From Dillenia suffruticosa (lineage: Eukaryota; Streptophyta; Magnoliopsida; Dilleniales; Dilleniaceae): a stretch of DNA of 64,000 nucleotides. A program made the position numbers and the translations under genes. Each line of letters starts with the position of its first letter. The first letter of the stretch is position 1. Shown piece after piece: positions 28,860 to 40,819 of the stretch. Below the pieces are notes generated by a model. The model did no database searches. It was not told where the DNA came from and worked only from the letters and a program-made list of their open reading frames with translations. The stretch lies in contig JAVTVX010000005.1 in assembly GCA_033439265.1 (NCBI GenBank), positions 5,094,001 to 5,158,000 of the forward strand. The letters are read 5' to 3'.

Positions 28860-31420
28860 CACACGTTTTCTTCCTGGTTTCTTCTAATTATCAAAAAAGA
28901 AAAATGCTTCTTGTTACTTTTGTTCAAGTTGTGAGATGTTTTCACTTTCTTCTAAGTTTTAATCGAAACTTTTGAAAGGAAATATTTTACTTACAACTAT
29001 GCTATTTTTCATATAGGTATTAATCGACTAGATCATTATGTGCAGCATCCAAATTATCTCATAAAATATGAGATTATTCAGTAAATTAGTTTAATGATCC
29101 TTACTTATGATAACATGTATTTTTCTTCATTTCTAGTAAAAAAAATGTTGTTTCTTATGATTACTAACCCTAAAAAATCAGAGTTATTTTGATCATCTGC
29201 AATGATATGTCTTCCTTGCATAAAAGGGTATATCAGAAAAAGAAAAATCTTAGCATTCATGTTACAACAACATTGGGATTAAATGTCCTTGAACTAAATT
29301 ATCTAACTTTTAGTACAAACATAATATGAAAATTTTAATTTTAATGCAAAAGTTTTCAGCCTGACTATAAAAAAATGTAAATACTTTACATTTACCCTTT
29401 TTCCTGCTCGTCGTAAAAGAATGGAAGAGAAGCTCGCCAGTTGACAAGGATGGTTTGGATCTAATCAGCACTTTTAACTAAACCTAACTCGGAGTTTAAA
29501 AAATAAGATAGTTAAGTAATATTCATACCAAATTGAATGCGTGAATCATAGCCAAACGTCTCTTCCAAATTGGACATAATAAGGCGGAAAGTCTGCGGTA
29601 ATTAGTAGTTTAGGAATTGTCCTGTAATACCCAACTTGCACGGCGAAGCATTTAATCGAACACTTGGTGTTCATTGAACTTATTCATTCATATGTACATG
29701 AATGTCAACTCATCTGTTAGGCTTTGGACCAAGATGTTTGTTGTCGGCCAGGGCAGTCTTAGGATGCTTTTTGTGATGTGTAAAACTGCAGTCTTATTGG
29801 GGTGTTCAATTGATGGATGCTTTTGTCCAAATTTCTTCATATGAAACAAATTTTGTTTCAAGCTTGCTCTGACTCTATCTCTATACAACACTTTTTTACC
29901 AGCCTAGCAGTAAATCCCCTACCTAAGTTCTTTGACCCAAAACTCCTAATCGTGACGACAAAAATTTGAAATCACGTTTGGTCAAAATTATTTATTTTTG
30001 TTACTGTATTAATTGATATCTAAAATTATATTTCAATTGATCCGATTTGAAACTTATAATGACCTATTTAAAAGAGTTATCTTTTTAATATAGTTTGCTC
30101 CATACTCAAGTTGTGAGTCGAACATGAGATCGTGATTAAGAGATTTACCATCACATTCTACTATATCAATTGACCGTTAATCATTCAGTCAAAATTATGC
30201 GTATAGATATAGACAGAAACGAAAACAAAAAATCAAAAAAGGTAGTAAATGATATGAAAAACGGGTATTTTTTAAAAGTAGATAAAATGAAAAATATAAA
30301 TAAATACGTAAATATAAAAAATATAAAAACTTTATATAAATAATAACTATTTTATGTAAATAATAAAATAAACATATTTTATAATAAAATTTAAAACGAT
30401 GAAATATGTAATTATTAATAATAAAATAAATAAAATTATAATTATAATTATAATAAAATAAAAAAAATAATTCATTAAATATAAATATAAGAATAAAAAT
30501 TTTTATATAAATATTAATTAATTACATAAATCAAAAATATTTTAGAAATAAAAAAATATTAATACCGAGAAATTTTATACGTTTGATAGGATATAATCAT
30601 AACTTTTTATTTTTATTAACAATTTGACTTATACGTGTAAGACAATATATTTATTTTTATAAAAAAAAAATCATTTATTCTAATCAAAAATTGAAAATCT
30701 CAATCAGTCATTTCTCGATTGGATAAGTTACTTATTATAAATAAAAAACAAAATATAAAATTGAGCCAAGTTTAGATTTACCAAACAGCCCCATGCGAGT
30801 TTTTTAGAGGTTTGATATTTGTTTTTTGTTTTTTTTTTCTTTTCTTTATTTTATATGAGTTTCATTATAAAATTTGTTTTAATACAGATGAGATATATAA
30901 ATTTATACAGAACAATATTAAAATATTTCTACGATGCAAAGAGTATTTCTTGAAAGCAAACAATTTTAAAGTCTATTAACAGAAGTCACAAATTATAGTA
31001 TTTTCTTTTTTATTTTTTACTTTACGTTACTTTGGTTAGCTTAAACAAAAAAATTTGGGAATAAGAAAATTATCTCGAAGCTAACAACTCAAATTCAAAA
31101 TTTTTAATATCGAGAATTATTCTTTTATTTTTTGTGGTTATAAAGAGGTGTAAATAAACAGAATTGAATCGAAAAAAAATAATAAAAGTGAGAAAATTCT
31201 ACCACTTGAGTCATGACGGACAATATCTTTTTTTTTATATTATACCAATCGATATTTTGAGTCATATTTCGATTAATTCGGTTCGAGATTTACAATGATC
31301 CATTAAATGAACTACTTTCTTAACATAATTTTTTCATACCTAAATCGTGAATTGAACTCAAGAATTTAGTTAAAAAATTTAATATCATATCACATTAACT
31401 CAATTATCTATTGGTTTCTG
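28860..31420. other. AT-rich intergenic DNA with SINE family A relics
   Basis: No gene was found. Minus-strand family A SINEs are visible at about 29960-30190 (head TCAATTGATATAGTAGAATG, box B GTTCGACTC) and 31228-31425. The region 30260-30560 is over 80% A/T and shares inverted phrases with 17580-17790. Confidence 0.45.
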
Positions 31421-31648
31421 ATGGACAATATCAAGAATTATTTTCCAACCAAAATATATATATCAAGAATTATTTTACGGGGTAAAAATCTATCCTGTAT
31501 CGAATGTTACTCGGCCCAACAACCCAACCAAATAATTGCACCTGCTTGGACAACAAAGAAGGATGGGCTACATCTTCTCATTGGGTCAGCCCCTATCCGG
31601 CCCAAGCTCTTTTTTTTTTTGGTTGCCTCCTTCCACTCACCCTCTCTC

Positions 31649-34600
31649 ATTGCATCGACGTCGGCTTCTCGTGGTGGTGATGGCGCCACCGGCAGAATCA
31701 GAAGTGCAGCTTCTTCAATGTCCCATGAGACTATTCATCTTTTCGCTGTAATTTCTATCTTTCTTTCCCTATCTCTCCCCCTCTCTCTCCCTCTCTCTCC
31801 TAACTTCCCACTTCTGTCTAGCTAGTCTCGCTCAATTTGTCTCTTTATTTTGTTACAGGAAATTAGAAAGGCTCTAATTATGATGAAGGAAGTGGCAGTA
31901 GATCTAGAGAAAGATAATCAATTCGACAAGGTATATATTTCGATTTCTGAGCCTCAGAGTTCTAGGTCTGAGTGCTTTTAATACTGTTTCAATCTTTTTT
32001 TTTTTTTTAACATTTTGATTAGGTTTTAGGTCTATTATAGTATTAGGAAAGTAAAAAATTGAGAGAGTTAGTATTACTAGCGTGAAAATTTTGTCAGGTG
32101 TCACTTTGTAAGATCATGTTCGCCTAAATATAGTTGGTGATCGTTGTTCTATTTTGAATGATGAGATAGCTTAGATCTGCATATATTTAGTTGATCTTAT
32201 TCTGTTGGTTGTGCCTTGAATATCAGCTTCCCAAACCTAATAGCTATATTAAATGCATTTTAGATGATGATTGGGAGAGAAAGTTACTTATTTTTCTTTC
32301 CTTTGGGAGTCTAGATACAAAAGAAAACGAGGGATTTGGATGGATTTGAGATCTCTCCAAATTTTAAAATTTTGCCCTCTCAAAGATGGAAAGAAACAGA
32401 TGGGAGAGAAAATATTAAGATTAAACATTTTTTATATTCAAAAAATGTCTTTCAAAAACTGATACCAAAACTTTTTATTCCTAATGAATCTCATCTATTC
32501 CCAATGAGTTTAGATACAATGGAATTTTTCTTTTCATTTCTCTCCAACTCCTAAACCAGAGAAATTCGTTTCTTTGCTTTTTTTTCATAAAACTCCCAAA
32601 CAAAATGGAAAGAAAATTATAATTTTTCTCTTCTTTTCTTTTCTTTCCTAACTGACCTTTTCTTTTCTATCCAAAACTCACAAACGTACTATAAGAGTCA
32701 ACTTGCCAAACCTAATAGCTATTTTCATGCAAATGAACGTTTGATGAGGACAAAATGCAACATGGATACTGAATGCCAAATGTTGAATCTCATGCTCTAA
32801 GATACAAGACTTATATTTGAGAGATGAATTACAAGTTGTTGTGGACATATATGCATGTAGGTGAATTCCTAAATCATTGAACAAGAAGCTACAGGGAAAA
32901 AAAGGGCTTTTATTGTTTTTGATTATATCAGCACGCTAAAAGAATGCAATGTTTATAAAAGCGCAGCCCAGAGTATGAGGTTCACACCACTGTGTGATCT
33001 TGGGATGGTCAAATGTATTCTTCCTTCCCACTAAGAACAAAGAGCCTATGGTCAAATGAATTACAAAGTACTGCTATTAACTTACTTGCTGTTCTTCAAT
33101 AGAAATAAACAGGTATGACAATCCAAAGAGAATGAGTATCCTATGCATTTATTGATTTGATAGATGCTGTGTATATAGGTGATGGAGCTTGAAGATGCAG
33201 CCTTAGAGTTATTGGCATCAGCTGAAGACTGTCAACGTTATTCTTCATTACTTGAATCTGTCGGAAATGGATATACCCGTGGCACAGAGGTGCTTCTTTA
33301 CCACTTTCATGACCATTCATCACACTGATTTTTTTTTTTTTTTTGGAAAGCATCTTTTATTGTCATATTTGCCCTTTCTCCGTCACTCGCTTTTGTTTGC
33401 AAAATTTCTTCCCAGCTGACTAATTTTAAGAAGTTGTTTGATGATGAGGCCAAAAAGCTTGATACAACTTCATCCTCGAACCTGCAAAACCATCAATTGC
33501 TGCGCCAGTTTAGAGAAGCTGTCTGGGTACATAAGATGACTACCAGTATTTTTTTTTTTGAGAGAGAGAGAGAGGGAGATATTCAGAATTCGATATTCAG
33601 CTTGGATGCGTACGTATTTAGACATAGCTTCTGTCACATACCTGGTCTTCAGTTATGTTTGAGCTTCTTTGATCGTAAGGATTTTCAAGAAGTTAATGAT
33701 TTAGGGAAAAATGCATAGAATGCTATAAATTACATTTCCTCTGAACTCATTAGCTTTTCAGTTTTGTCTTTTGAATGTTGACCAAGTTGCCTGACTGGAT
33801 CAGTCCAAATACTTTGTTTTGTATGTTTGTCCACATTAATCAGGAAACAAATGAAAGGAAATTTCTGCAATCTCTTGTATTTTATAAAGCATAGTGTCCA
33901 GCAATATTTCTGACACCAGGAAACAGGACACAAGTCCCCCTTAATGGATGATATATCGATACATCATTTGCCTTTTTCTAGCTATCTTTGTCCGTTTAAA
34001 TCTACTTTGTTTTTCCTTTGTTCTCCTTTAAGAAGTCTTATTTGCAAAAAAAAAAAAAAAAAAAAATGTATTTATGAATGCACCTTATCATGAGGGTTTT
34101 CTTCCATTTTGTAGAATGTTCATCATGCAGGGCAGCCAATGCCTGGTGAAGAGCAAGAGGATAATGTGATGACTAGTACCCAATGCACTTTTTTGAATAT
34201 CACTTGTCCGTTATGTGGAAAGCCAGTTACTGAAATTGCAGATCCAGTTCGCAGGTACTTCCACAAGAAGTTGATCATGATGATAACTTGTATCAGACAG
34301 AGGCCTGTCCTCACATGTGTAGTCCTTATATGGAAATTGCTAGATGCATTGCTTTAAAGTTATTAATGGAGGCAAATTCATGGAGCGATATGGACATTAC
34401 AGACAGATTAACATTACCCCCGAAAGGAAAACAAATAATAAATAATAAAGAAATAAAAGGTGTGCCTCTCAATTAGAACAAAATCACTTGTAGATGATCA
34501 CCAACTACTTTGGGTAATTTTTGTATTTTGGTGCTTTATGTTGTTTTCCATATTTCTTGTTGTTGTAGGACAGTGTTGCTTGCAAACATATTTATGACAA

Positions 34601-35124
34601 GAAGGCCATCATGCAGTTCATAAGGTTAAAAATGGGCCGCTGTAAGTCCAGAATGAACAGTTCCCGAGTGGGATGTGGGTTGTGGTGTTAGGTTGCTTAA
34701 CCAAGTTCCCGAGTTCAACTCGCAGTTTGGGTATGGAAAAAACTACGTTAGGAGAGTAGCTCCCTTAAATGGGCCAATGCAAGTCCCGAACGGGAATAGT
34801 CGGAGTATAAGTTTGGATACCGGTTGGTATAGTACCAAAAAGTTCATAAGGTCAAAAATGGGAGCTGTTAAGTTCCCTGTAGCAGGTACTGATTCATTTG
34901 CCTACATTTCTGTTGTGCATGAACTTATTTTCATCTTCCTCTACTTACCTTTACCCATTTTTCTGTGTTCAGCTTGCCCTAGCCTTCTAGTGGCAGATGG
35001 AGTGATTCATGATCCTTTGTTGCTGATTAAAATTGATGAATTGCGGTCAATGAGTAAAAATGCCATTAGACCAGAGATTGTAGAAGATTTCACTGAGCTG
35101 GACGATGATGATGATGAAGACTAG
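31649..35124 (+). CDS. NSE2: E3 SUMO-protein ligase NSE2/MMS21 (HPY2) homologue, altered
   Basis: Hand-built exons are 31649/31718-31747, 31859-31930, 33179-33289, 33416-33526, 34115-34254, 34574-34624, 34851-34885 and 34973-35124. All join in phase, giving 233 residues from ATG 31718. Conserved blocks include E-I-R-K-A-L-I-M-M-K-E-V-A-V-D, N-V-H-H-A-G-Q-P-M-P-G and C-P-L-C-G-K-P-V-T-E, then D-P-V-R-S-V-A-C-K-H (SP-RING), C-P-S-L-L-V-A-D and the acidic tail D-D-D-D-D-E-D. NSE2 sumoylates targets as part of the SMC5/6 complex in DNA repair, and in Arabidopsis controls meristem proliferation. Oddities: the homology-supported N-terminus (A-S-T-S-A-S-R-G-G) has ATT where ATG is expected (31649); a short out-of-frame uORF opens at 31680; a SINE splits the SP-RING exon; and a predicted zinc-ligand Cys is Phe (34873-34875). 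Gene identity is firm, activity uncertain. Confidence 0.85.
32227..32722. repeat. 455-bp block flanked by 21-bp direct repeats in NSE2 intron 2
   Basis: Two 21-bp copies of a CTTSCCAAACCTAATAGCTA-like sequence (32227-32247 and 32702-32722) differ at one base. The enclosed sequence is rich in CTTTTC and GGGAGAGAAA phrases and has MITE-like CTCCCAAAC and TTTGGGAG pieces. The duplication points to an insertion, but the element type is not clear. Confidence 0.5.
34616..34862 (+). mobile_element. tRNA-derived SINE inserted in NSE2 SP-RING exon, with 21-bp TSD
   Basis: The exon sequence at 34616-34636 recurs at 34842-34862 with one mismatch in 21. Between them is a SINE with tRNA-like boxes (TGGTGTTAGG and CGAGTTCAACTCG), then TACGTTAGGAGAGTAGC, CCGGTTGGTA and a short A-rich end, as in Au-type plant SINEs. 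Both duplicates contain TTCATAAG|GT. Splicing from 34625 to 34850 would remove the SINE plus one duplicate and leave the exon unchanged in frame. The 5' junction also resembles an internal SINE segment (near 34768), so the left edge of the element is uncertain by about 25 bp. Confidence 0.8.
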
Positions 35125-35935: not shown

Positions 35936-38900
35936 ACTATAATAGAAGCAAACAAGTGGAGGGGAGAGGAAGTGGGAGGGAGTGATACGTAAGATTTGAA
36001 TAGTAGGTTACTATTCATCCTTTCTTTTTTTTTTCTTCTCTTATTGGATTTTTTTTTTGTTTTTTTTTGGTTTCTTCTTCAAGTGGGAGAGAGGGGAGTG
36101 GGAGTGTCGCGTAGGATTAGAATAGTAGGCTATTGTTCATTCTTTTTTTGGGTTTTTTTCTTTTTTGTTTCTTCTTCTCTTTTTTTTACTTCTTTTACCC
36201 AATTACCCTTTTTGCTTTTTTTGTAATTTCATTTATTTCATCGATCATCCTTTTTATTTTACTATTTTTTCTTTTGGATTCCGTTGTTACTGGTTTATTA
36301 TTTTTTTTATTTCTTTTTTTTTCACTCTTCACAGAGTGGGAGGGAGTGCCACCTCAAATTGGAATAATAGGCTACTATTCTTTTTTTTAACTTCTTATCT
36401 TTTTTGTTTCTTTTTTTTCTTTTTACCTTTTTTCACCCTTTTTCACCCTTCATCCTTCACCCTTCTTTTTTTTTTTTTACATTTTTTGGGTTTAATCTTT
36501 TTATTCTTTTTGCTCCTATTTTTTTGGGTTCTACTATTACTAGTTTGCTATTGTTCGTTTTTTTTTACTTCTTTTGTTTTGCTTTTTTCTCTTTGCTTTT
36601 TTATTTTTTTTCACCCTTCACTTGTGGGAGGAGGGATGGAAAGGAATGTCATCTCAAATGGGAACAATTGGCTGCTATTTCCTCTTTTTTTTTTTTTTTT
36701 TTTTGGGTTTTGTTTTTCTTTTTTTTTCTTACTATAATAGAAAAGAACAAGATGGGGAGGGGTGTGTGAGGCTTTGCCACCTCAGCGGTGAACAGTTTGT
36801 TACCGTTTATCCCTCTTTTTTTTTTTTTCTTTTTTTTGGTTTTTTTCACCTATTTATCCTCTTTTTCTGCTTCTTTTTATTTTACTTTTTTTTTTCACCA
36901 TTCCCCTTTCTCTCTTTTTTTTTTTTTTGGATTTCTTCTCCTTCCTTTTTTTTTACTTCTTTTTTTTTTTTCTACCCTTCAACCTTTATTTTTTCACTCC
37001 TTTTTTTTTGGGGGGTTCCATGGTGATCGGTTTGTTACTGTTTTTTTTTTTTTTTTTTACTTTTTTTTCATCTATTTATCCTTTTTTTTTGCTTCTTTTT
37101 TTTACCCTTCACCCTTTCCTTTTTTTCTTTTTTTTTTTTTTATTTTTTTGGGTTTCTTCTTTTTCTTTTTTTCACCTTTCACGCTTCTTTTTTTTTTCAC
37201 TCTTTTTTTTGGATTCCACTGTTACCGATTTGCTACCGTTCCTATTTTTTACTTCTTTTTTTTCCTTTTTTTACTTCCTTTTTTTTTTTATCATTCACCG
37301 TTCCTTTTTTTTTTTACTTTTTTTGGGTTTTTTTTTCTTTTTTTTTTTTATCATTCACCTTTTTTTTCACTCTTTTTTTTTGAATTTCATGTTACCGGTT
37401 TATTACTATTTCTTTTTTTACTTCTGTTTTTTTGGGTTTCTTTTTTTTCTTTTCTTACTATAATAGAAACAAACAAGTGGGTAAGATGGAGTGCCTTGGG
37501 AGTGCCATGTCGGATGGGAACAGTGTGTTACTGTGTCCCTTTATTTTCTTCTCTTTTTTTATGTTTCTTATTTTTTTTACTTATTTTTGTCACCCATTTA
37601 TCTTTTTTTTTCTTTTTTTTCCGTCCTTTTCCCTTCCCTTTTTTCCTTTTTCTTTTTTTTACTTTTTTTGGATTTATTCTTCTTCTTCTTTTTTTTTAAT
37701 TCTTTTTTTTTTCACCCTTCACCCTTCACATTTCTTTTTTTTTTTTCATTCATTTTTTAGGACTCCACTGTTACTGATATGCTATTTTTGCCTTTTTTAA
37801 CTTCTTTTTTTACCCATTTACCTTTTTTTTTGCTTATTCTTTTTTTCTTTCTTTTTTTCACCCTACACTTTTTTTTTTTACTTTTTTAGGATTTCTTCTT
37901 GTTTTTTTTTTTTTTTGCTTCTTTTTTCACCCTTCACCCTTCATCCTTCATCCTTCACCCTTCTTTTTTTTTTACGTTTTTTGGGTTTAATCTTTTTATT
38001 TTTTTTGCTCCTGTTTTTTTGGGTTCTACTATTACTAGTTTGCTATTGTTCGTTTTTTTTAGTTCTTTTGTTTTGCTTTTTTCTTTTTTCTTTTTTATTT
38101 TTTTTCACCCTTCACTTGTGGGAGGAGGGATGAAAAGGAATGTCATCTTAAATGGGAACAATTGGCTGCTATTTCCTCTTTTTTTTATTTTTTTGGGGTT
38201 TTTTTTTTTCTTTTTTTTTCTTACTATAATAGAAAAGAACAAGATGAGGAGGGGTGTGTGAGGCTTTGCCACCTCAGTGGTGAACAGTTTGTTACTGTTA
38301 ATCCCTCTTTTTTTTTTTCTTTTTTTTTAGTTTTTTTTTCACCTATTTATCATTTTTTCTGCTTTTTTTTTTATTTTACTTTTTTTCTTTCACCGTTCCC
38401 CCTTCTCTTTTTTTTTTTTTGGATTTCTTCTCCTTCCTTTTTTTTTACTTCTTTTTTTTTTCTACCCTTCAACCTTCATTTTTTCACTCATTTTTTTTGG
38501 GGTTCCATGGTGATCGGTTTGTTACTGTTTTTTTTTCTTTACTTTTTTTTCACCCATTTATCCTTTTTTTTGCTTCTTTTTTTTACCCTTCACCCTTTCC
38601 TTTTTTTCTTTTTTTTTTTAATTTTTTTGGGTTTCTGCTTCTTCTTTTTTTCACCTTTCACGCTTTTTTTTTCACTCTTTTTTTTGGATTCCACTGTTAC
38701 CGATTTGCTACCGTTCCTATTTTTTACTTCTTTTTTTTCACCAATTTATCCTTTTGTTCCTTTTTTTACTTCTTTTTTTTTATCATTCACCGTTCCTTTT
38801 TTTTTTTACTTTTTTTGGGTTTTTTTTTTTTTTTTTTTTTTACCATTCACCTTTTTTTTCACTTTTTTTTTTTTGATTTCATATTACCGGTTTGTTACTA

Positions 38901-40500
38901 TTTCTTTTTTTTACTTCTGTTTTTTTGGGTTTCTTCTTTTTCTTTTCTTACTATAATAGAAACAAACAAGTGGGTAAGGGGGAGTGCCTTGGGAGTGCCA
39001 TGTCGGATGGGAACAGTGTGTTACTGTGTCCCTTTATTTTCTTCTCTTTTTTTATGTTTCTTATTTTTTTTACTTATTTTTGTCACCCATTTATCTTTTT
39101 TTTTTCTTTTTTTTCCGTCCTTTTCCCTTCCATTTTTTCCTTTTTCCTTTTTTTACTTTTTTTGGATTTGTTCTTCTTCTTCTTTTTTTTAATTCTTTTT
39201 TTTTTCACCCTTCACCCTTCACATTTCTTTTTTTTTTTCACTCATTTTTAGGACTCCACTATTACTGATCTGCTATTTTTACCCTTTTTAACTTCTTTTT
39301 TTACCCATTTACCTTTCTTTTTGCTTATTCTTTTTTTCTTTCTTTTTTTCACCCTACACTTTTTTTTTTTACTTTTTTAGGATTTCTTCTTGGTTTTTTT
39401 TTTTGCTTCTTTTTTCACCATTCACCCTTCTTTTTCTTTACTCATTTTTTTATTCACTATTACTGGTTTATTACTATTCTTTTTTTTTGTTTCTTCTTTT
39501 GCTTTTTTACTTTTTTTTTCACCCGTCACTTGTGGAGGAGGAGAAAGTAGGAGGGAATGCCACCTCATATGAAAATAATTGGCTATTATTCACTTTTTTT
39601 TGGGTTTCTTTTTTGGGAATGGGGAGTACTTTGGGAGTGCCACCTTGGACGTGGATTACTATTTCCCCCTTTTTTTTCTCTCTTTGTTTAGTGTTTCATC
39701 TTCTTTTTTTTTTTTGCTTATTTTTTGGACCTATTTACCATTTTTTTTCTTATTCTTTTTTTCACCACTTTCCCTTCCCTTTTTCCTTTTTTTTTTTTAT
39801 TACTTTTTTTGGGTTTTTCTTCTTCTTCTTGTTTTTTTAACCCTTCGCTCTTATTTTTTGTTTTACTATTATCGGTTTGCTACTTTTGTTTTTTCTTTTT
39901 TTACCCATTTATCCTTTTTTTGTTTCTTTTTTTTTTTACTTCTTATTTTTTTTACTTCTTTTGGGTTTCTTCTTATTCTTTTTTATTTTTATTTTTTTCA
40001 CCGTTTACATTTATTTTTTCATTCCTTTTTATATTCCACTGTTACCGGTTTGCTATTGTTCTTTTTTTACTTTTTTTTTATTGTTTCTTCTTTTCATTTT
40101 TTACTTTTTTTCACCCTTCAATCGTGTGGGAGAGGGGAGTGGGAGGGAATGACATCTCGGATGGGAACAGTTGACTACTGTTCCCTCTTTTTTTAGGGGT
40201 TTTTTCTTCCCTTTTTTTTTTTACTTCTTTTTTTTCACTATTTATCCTTCGTTTTTTTTTCTTTGTTTTTTTCTCCCTTCATCCTTCACCCTTTTTTTTT
40301 TTTTTTTTTTTACTTTTTTTGGGTTTCTTGATCTTCTCTGTTTTTTTACTTCTTTTTTTTTTTCACCCTTTACACTTTGTTTCACTCTTTTTTTTGGATT
40401 CCCCTGTTTCCGGTTCCCTACTATTCCCCTTTTTTACTACTTTTTTTGTTTTTTCTTTTTCTTTTTTACTTTTTTTTTTACCTTTTACCCCTTTACCATT
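35936..40500 (+). repeat. 4.5-kb pyrimidine-rich degenerate repeat array
   Basis: The plus strand is almost only T and C, broken by three recurrent motifs: CACCCTTCACCC-like, TTTTTTGGGTTT-like and (G)TTACCGGTTTGCTA-like. About a dozen G-rich cores of roughly 60 bp also recur (GTGGGAGGGAGTGCCACCTC, then GGGAACAGT). ACTATAATAGAA recurs at 35938, 36729, 37451, 38222 and 38949. Long Phe-rich frames here are by-products of the T runs. The array starts about 0.8 kb after NSE2 and ends 0.3 kb before the exonuclease gene. Confidence 0.9.
36400..39415 (+). repeat. 1.5-kb tandem duplication inside the pyrimidine array
   Basis: Copy 1 (about 36400-37918) and copy 2 (about 37919-39415) align throughout at an offset of 1,496-1,502 bp. 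Examples are the Gly/purine cores at 36620 and 38118, at 36745 and 38247, and at 37476 and 38971, and the flanking TACACTTTTT blocks. Differences are mostly T-run length and scattered substitutions, so the duplication is later than the smaller repeats inside it. Confidence 0.85.
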
Positions 40501-40819
40501 TTTTTAATAATTATAACATACAAAAAAAGCAAATATGGGCCAAGGCTACACCTTGTGCAGTCAGAACCTTCCTAGTATTAAAATATAAATAAATTTTCCC
40601 ACTTCATACTCATGTTACTTAGGCTTGAACATGGCTCGGCCCAACTCTCGCCATGGTCTGGTCTAGAGCCAGAAGCCCGGATCTTATACATGTTGGGCTC
40701 ACTTCCAACCTTCTAGGGTTCGATTTTGAAAGGTTCGAAAAGATTCAGCTCCGGTCGTTTCATAAACTATCAACCTCCGTGTGGAACAGAAAAGACTGAC
40801 ATCGAACCTTTGATTCTCG

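Follow-up and report, generated by a model that had tools for sequence, protein, structure and literature searches.

A SINE with an AG/GT-bearing target duplication inside an exon of one of two NSE2/MMS21 duplicates in Dillenia suffruticosa

The NSE2/MMS21 copy and its SINE insert

The window is a 64,000-nucleotide stretch of the Dillenia suffruticosa genome (C5:5094001-5158000), and it harbours a copy of the gene for NSE2/MMS21/HPY2, the SUMO ligase of the SMC5/6 complex (Table 1). With the SINE omitted from the reading, the predicted product matches the Pfam zf-Nse domain with 39.7 bits (cut-off 27), which backs the gene name NSE2 given in the original prediction; a Pfam scan of single reading frames returned nothing above the cut-off. 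The window copy shares the zf-Nse domain with this ligase, but differs from it in three respects: the start ATG is ATT, one zinc ligand is replaced by Phe, and exon 6 holds a SINE. The length of the full eight-exon model, in which the SINE is excised, had been described as divisible by three, and this holds for its 771 nt, which contain no internal stop, but the model begins with ATT at 31649. The GT and AG ends are intact at all six ancestral introns, and skipping of exon 6 would break the frame.

The SINE sits in sense orientation within exon 6 of this copy, flanked on both sides by the direct repeat AGTTCATAAGGT[T/C]AAAAATGGG, a target duplication that bears AG/GT. The SINE, the duplication and its single mismatch had been recognised correctly, but the repeat is 22 bp long and not 21 bp. 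At the 5' junction, the 17-nt piece at 34637-34653 resembles the interior of the SINE (14 of 17 positions without gaps, reached by 0 of 5000 shuffles) and adjoins the motif AAATGGG, which is common to the target and the SINE. A target duplication of 33 bp extending to 34647 was rejected, as it appears only in a gapped alignment whose score was reached by 49 of 5000 shuffles. Since the SINE interior fits the 17-nt piece better than the longer duplication does, we prefer to place the junction at the AAATGGG common to target and SINE. A C-to-T change relative to the SINE consensus at this junction creates the GTAAGT donor at 34641.

Table 1. Features of the NSE2/MMS21 window copy and of its SINE insert (positions within the window)
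Feature	Position	Strand	Remark
Exon 1	31649..31747	+	First codon ATT; ATG in the duplicate
Exon 2	31859..31930	+	NSE2 window copy
Exon 3	33179..33289	+	NSE2 window copy
Exon 4	33416..33526	+	NSE2 window copy
Exon 5	34115..34254	+	NSE2 window copy
Exon 6 including the SINE	34574..34885	+	Counterpart in the duplicate: 86 nt, uninterrupted
First copy of the target duplication	34615..34636	+	Contains AG|GT, the proposed donor, at 34624/34625 (score 0.4)
SINE insert	34637..34840	+	34637-34653 like the SINE interior (14/17); usual family 5' start from ~34650
Alternative donor GCT|GTAAGT	34641..34642	+	Score 4.7; in frame if spliced to 34973
In-frame TAG if the SINE is retained	34689..34691	+	Read-through
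Alternative TATAG| acceptor close to the 3' end of the SINE	34831..34832	+	Score 4.6; in frame with donor 34624, adds six residues
Second copy of the target duplication	34841..34862	+	Contains the proposed acceptor, which ends at 34850 (score -6.4)
Exon 7 with stop codon	34973..35124	+	NSE2 window copy

Searching the 596,357,000-base assembly (37 contigs) with the SINE insert yielded at least 41 matches, with 40 of 1165 first-look candidates scored, hence the family size is a lower bound. The 3' end is common to dispersed copies of the family, in keeping with a SINE. By eye, most of the fetched loci have a ACCAACGGACAGTTGG-like 5' start and an A-rich tail, and stretches resembling the A and B boxes of tRNA-type promoters are putatively present in the insert. 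Flanking repeats of 10-17 bp were likewise found by eye at 13 of the 19 other fetched loci (one, L009, is doubtful), a range that the 22 bp at NSE2 exceeds; repeats of only 5-9 bp flank L007, L013, L014, L017, L018 and L020, among which L013, L014 and L020 resemble a single duplicated locus. Two states of the NSE2 SINE, both transversions, are absent from all 36 other copies placed in a tree with it, and a pattern search for a close sub-family retrieved one other copy, L003. A transition and transversion contrast of 14 and 11 was set aside as partly a product of poor 5' alignment; at 158 clean sites the values are 10 and 5 in the NSE2 SINE versus means of 14.9 and 2.2 in the other copies, which is not used as evidence. 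Two older relatives of the SINE lie on the minus strand at 31231-31373 and 29995-30140 (72% and 67% over about 145 nt), the former a few hundred bases upstream of NSE2 exon 1.

The SINE-free duplicate and the state of the window copy

A protein search of the same genome with the last NSE2 exons gave five matches at two loci, namely the window copy and a region of C2 (about 1200226-1200546). The C2 duplicate runs from 1204366 down to 1200223 in seven exons of 99, 72, 111, 111, 140, 86 and 149 nt, and has the ATG as well as Cys181, His183, Cys203 and Cys208. In its exon number it is like maize Mms21, for which seven exons are reported (PMC8568144). The original prediction had proposed the same exon in related species as a comparison, and here the same-genome duplicate provides a comparison of this kind: its exon 6 is an unbroken 86 nt without the SINE, which represents the empty site, so the insertion is derived and present in one copy only. 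The counterpart of the target in the duplicate reads AGAT and not AGGT. A global alignment of the copies puts the beginning of exon 6 in the wrong place, next to the SINE, therefore exon 6 was taken from other comparisons.

Collinearity between the flanks of both copies extends over 25.0-63.9 kb in the window, so the sequence evidence indicates that the gene pair most likely arose by whole-genome or large segmental duplication; the collinear block (25010-63950) spans about 39 kb on the window side versus about 18 kb at C2. The introns and 3' UTR of the duplicates differ by a K2P distance of 0.150 (2039 aligned sites; 40 gaps, 30 of them not multiples of three). In the tree with the 36 other copies, the terminal branch of the NSE2 SINE is 0.075, which equals half of this distance, so that only an upper bound can be placed on the age of the insertion.

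The window copy has lost the ancestral start codon. Among the ATGs in 31401-31760, those at 31504, 31563, 31680 and 31725 are out of frame, and those in frame stand at 31718 (233 codons) and, upstream of the old start, at 31421 (332 codons). In addition, codon 203 (34872-34874) is TTC (Phe) in place of the TGC (Cys) of the duplicate, and yeast Mms21 also has Cys at this site. We take Cys203 to be a zinc ligand, which the alignment with the yeast CPQAAC motif supports, and the set of zinc ligands in the window copy is then incomplete. The zf-Nse score of the window copy also falls below the 52.7 bits of the duplicate. Changes of zinc-binding residues are reported to lower the ligase activity (PMC3466189).

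Between the duplicates dN is 0.064 and dS 0.132 (ratio 0.49). The 33 differing residues were polarised by eye with a provisional Arabidopsis HPY2 sequence as the outgroup, which assigned 14 changes to the window copy (one doubtful), three to the duplicate and left 16 unplaced. The split of 14 versus 3 has a p value of 0.013 (0.021 with 13), and it implies rate ratios of about 0.81 for the window copy and 0.17 for the duplicate, with wide limits (0.55-0.94 and 0.42-0.04); the polarisation depends on the provisional outgroup. Amino-acid change apparently has been faster in the window copy than in the intact duplicate. The density of residue changes past the SINE (11 of 61 codons) does not significantly exceed that before it (22 of 194, p 0.19).

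Other than the stop within the SINE, the 771 nt of the window copy contain no frameshift or stop. The probability of this outcome is 0.0005, 0.003, 0.02 and 0.15 if the copy was neutral for 100, 75, 50 and 25% of the time since duplication, respectively, thus the open frame sits uneasily with a long decay. When the lost start and the lost ligand are counted as two disabling changes, the probability of two or fewer becomes 0.008, 0.04, 0.19 and 0.63, hence neutrality for 25-50% of that time fits what is seen. Past the SINE lie 187 nt that could stay in use only through splicing. By chance alone they would lack frameshifts and stops with a probability of 0.16-0.63, and the stretch is too short to be informative, so splicing is not needed to account for the open frame.

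Likewise, no break occurs in the 584 nt that precede the SINE (P 0.054 and 0.013 for neutrality of 50% and 75%, respectively), as would be expected if the SINE were retained and selection kept a truncated N-terminal protein that ends within it at 34689. We regard this as the least probable of the explanations considered, as the ancestral start has no ATG, the part before the SINE carries 8 of the 14 residue changes attributed to the window copy, and another intron follows the stop. A stop in such a position usually invites RNA decay.

Splice sites at the ends of the insert

It had been proposed that the SINE became an intron, with a donor in the first repeat and an acceptor in the second. The elements of this proposal are present: both repeats contain AG|GT, joining 34624 to 34851 gives R-S-K-M-G, and read-through of the SINE meets a stop. 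Exact restoration of the message, however, follows automatically whenever a duplicated target contains AGGT, so it provides no evidence of splicing, a caution for the interpretation of such insertions. AGGT is held by 38 of 750 22-mers of the window-copy coding sequence and by 19 of 747 in the C2 duplicate, and 70 of the 271 GT-AG pairs tried at the window copy give an open frame. The frame argument for a SINE-born intron is weak.

Splice sites were scored with a rough matrix, for which the two copies supplied 12 inferred donors and 12 inferred acceptors; these sites are related to one another and were also the training set on which they were scored. On this scale the acceptor at 34850 reaches -6.4, compared to 4.2 to 12.0 for the 12 inferred acceptors, and the donor at 34624 reaches 0.4, compared to 4.8 to 11.4 for the 12 inferred donors, therefore the rough matrix finds no usable donor and acceptor at the proposed intron ends. 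The acceptor has no U-rich tract and an A at -3, and two AGs lie shortly upstream (34832 and 34842), the first of which scores far above it; the lack of a good polypyrimidine tract had been conceded from the outset, and the site is even weaker than supposed. Furthermore, the would-be intron is 54% A+U, compared to 58-68% in the six other introns, and its last 40 nt are 30% U, compared to 42-53%.

Exact splicing at 34624/34851, which would produce a precise SINE-born intron and an unchanged protein, is very unlikely in the light of these values. Although AG|GT in both repeats would restore the message exactly, the exon of the duplicate is uninterrupted, and a precedent from rice exists (see below), both sites score poorly, one of the two AGs upstream of the acceptor is much better, and the copy shows signs of decay. 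The proposal of an intron at 34625/34850 is left unsupported on these grounds.

If the SINE is spliced, the predicted sites favour 34624/34833, with an addition of six residues, or 34641/34973 over 34624/34851. By either route, the donor at 34624 with the TATAG acceptor (34832) or the GTAAGT donor at 34641 with 34973, the SINE would be removed in frame and an altered NSE2 would be made, which might serve SMC5/6 structurally and lack ligase activity. The score at 34832 lies within the acceptor range, that at 34641 just below the donor range, and in both cases the rest of the frame is open. Nevertheless, the copy lacks its start ATG and one zinc ligand, the donor at 34624 is weak, the A+U content is low, and the strong native donor at 34885 (CAG|GTACTG, score 10.6) favours retention of the whole exon, which makes in-frame removal unlikely, though it is a better candidate than the exact junction.

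Probable gene decay and known cases of intron gain

Because the start codon and the zinc-ligand Cys have been lost and residue change is apparently faster, the explanation that we consider probable is that the SINE hit a redundant, decaying NSE2/MMS21 duplicate and that the AG/GT in its target is coincidental. According to this scenario, the SINE would have retrotransposed into exon 6 of one of the two duplicates and duplicated 22 bp of its target; it would be mostly kept in any transcript, whereby translation would stop at 34689 and the second half of the SP-RING would be lost, and such transcripts would probably undergo RNA decay. The C2 copy presumably supplies the NSE2 function while the window copy decays. 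The existence of an intact collinear duplicate with ATG, Cys203 and an unbroken exon 6 supports decay, and the poor donor and acceptor, together with the low A+U and U contents of the would-be intron, suggest that the SINE is retained in the window copy. Against decay stand the absence of any frameshift or stop besides the SINE and the intact GT and AG ends of the six ancestral introns. Birth of an intron from the SINE in the window copy is possible, but the sequence evidence does not favour it.

Comparable insertions have been described in other systems. A SINE-born coding intron is reported for rice catalase A (PMC2394776), and the NSE2 case is similar in that a SINE has entered the coding exon of a plant gene; it differs in that its sites score poorly, the copy shows signs of decay and splicing is only predicted. 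The AGGT target duplicated on both sides of the SINE also resembles a reviewed model of intron gain by transposon insertion into AGGT, but this model (PMC3443670) needs efficient use of both sites, and the acceptor context at NSE2 is poor. Introners are families of elements that made many introns, and one survey records them in animals and not in land plants (PMC9860276). The same source describes introners of other eukaryotes with their own 3' site and a 5' site from the target duplication, which lends some plausibility to in-frame removal. NSE2 resembles these cases in that an exon has taken up a mobile element and the candidate splice sites come either from that element or from its target duplication; intron-making by the NSE2 SINE family, unlike that by introners, would be hypothetical.

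If the insertion disabled a redundant copy, which seems likelier, it would be a commonplace stage in the loss of a duplicated gene. Were the SINE spliced out, the locus would be a rare SINE-born coding intron whose empty site is preserved in the same genome, so that the birth of the intron could be bracketed in time and tested. In the case of in-frame removal, one duplicate would have acquired an intron and become an altered NSE2 whose zinc site no longer works, and the SINE-free duplicate would serve as a same-genome control.

Two further features were observed around the gene. Part of intron 2 (32277-32697) is 78-83% similar to sequence lying upstream of the duplicate gene and is probably another mobile element. 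Between NSE2 and the next conserved neighbour block, 36000-40600 consists of strongly T-rich, strand-asymmetric imperfect repeats (44 tandem-repeat rows), and the long open frames in this region are artefacts of its T richness.
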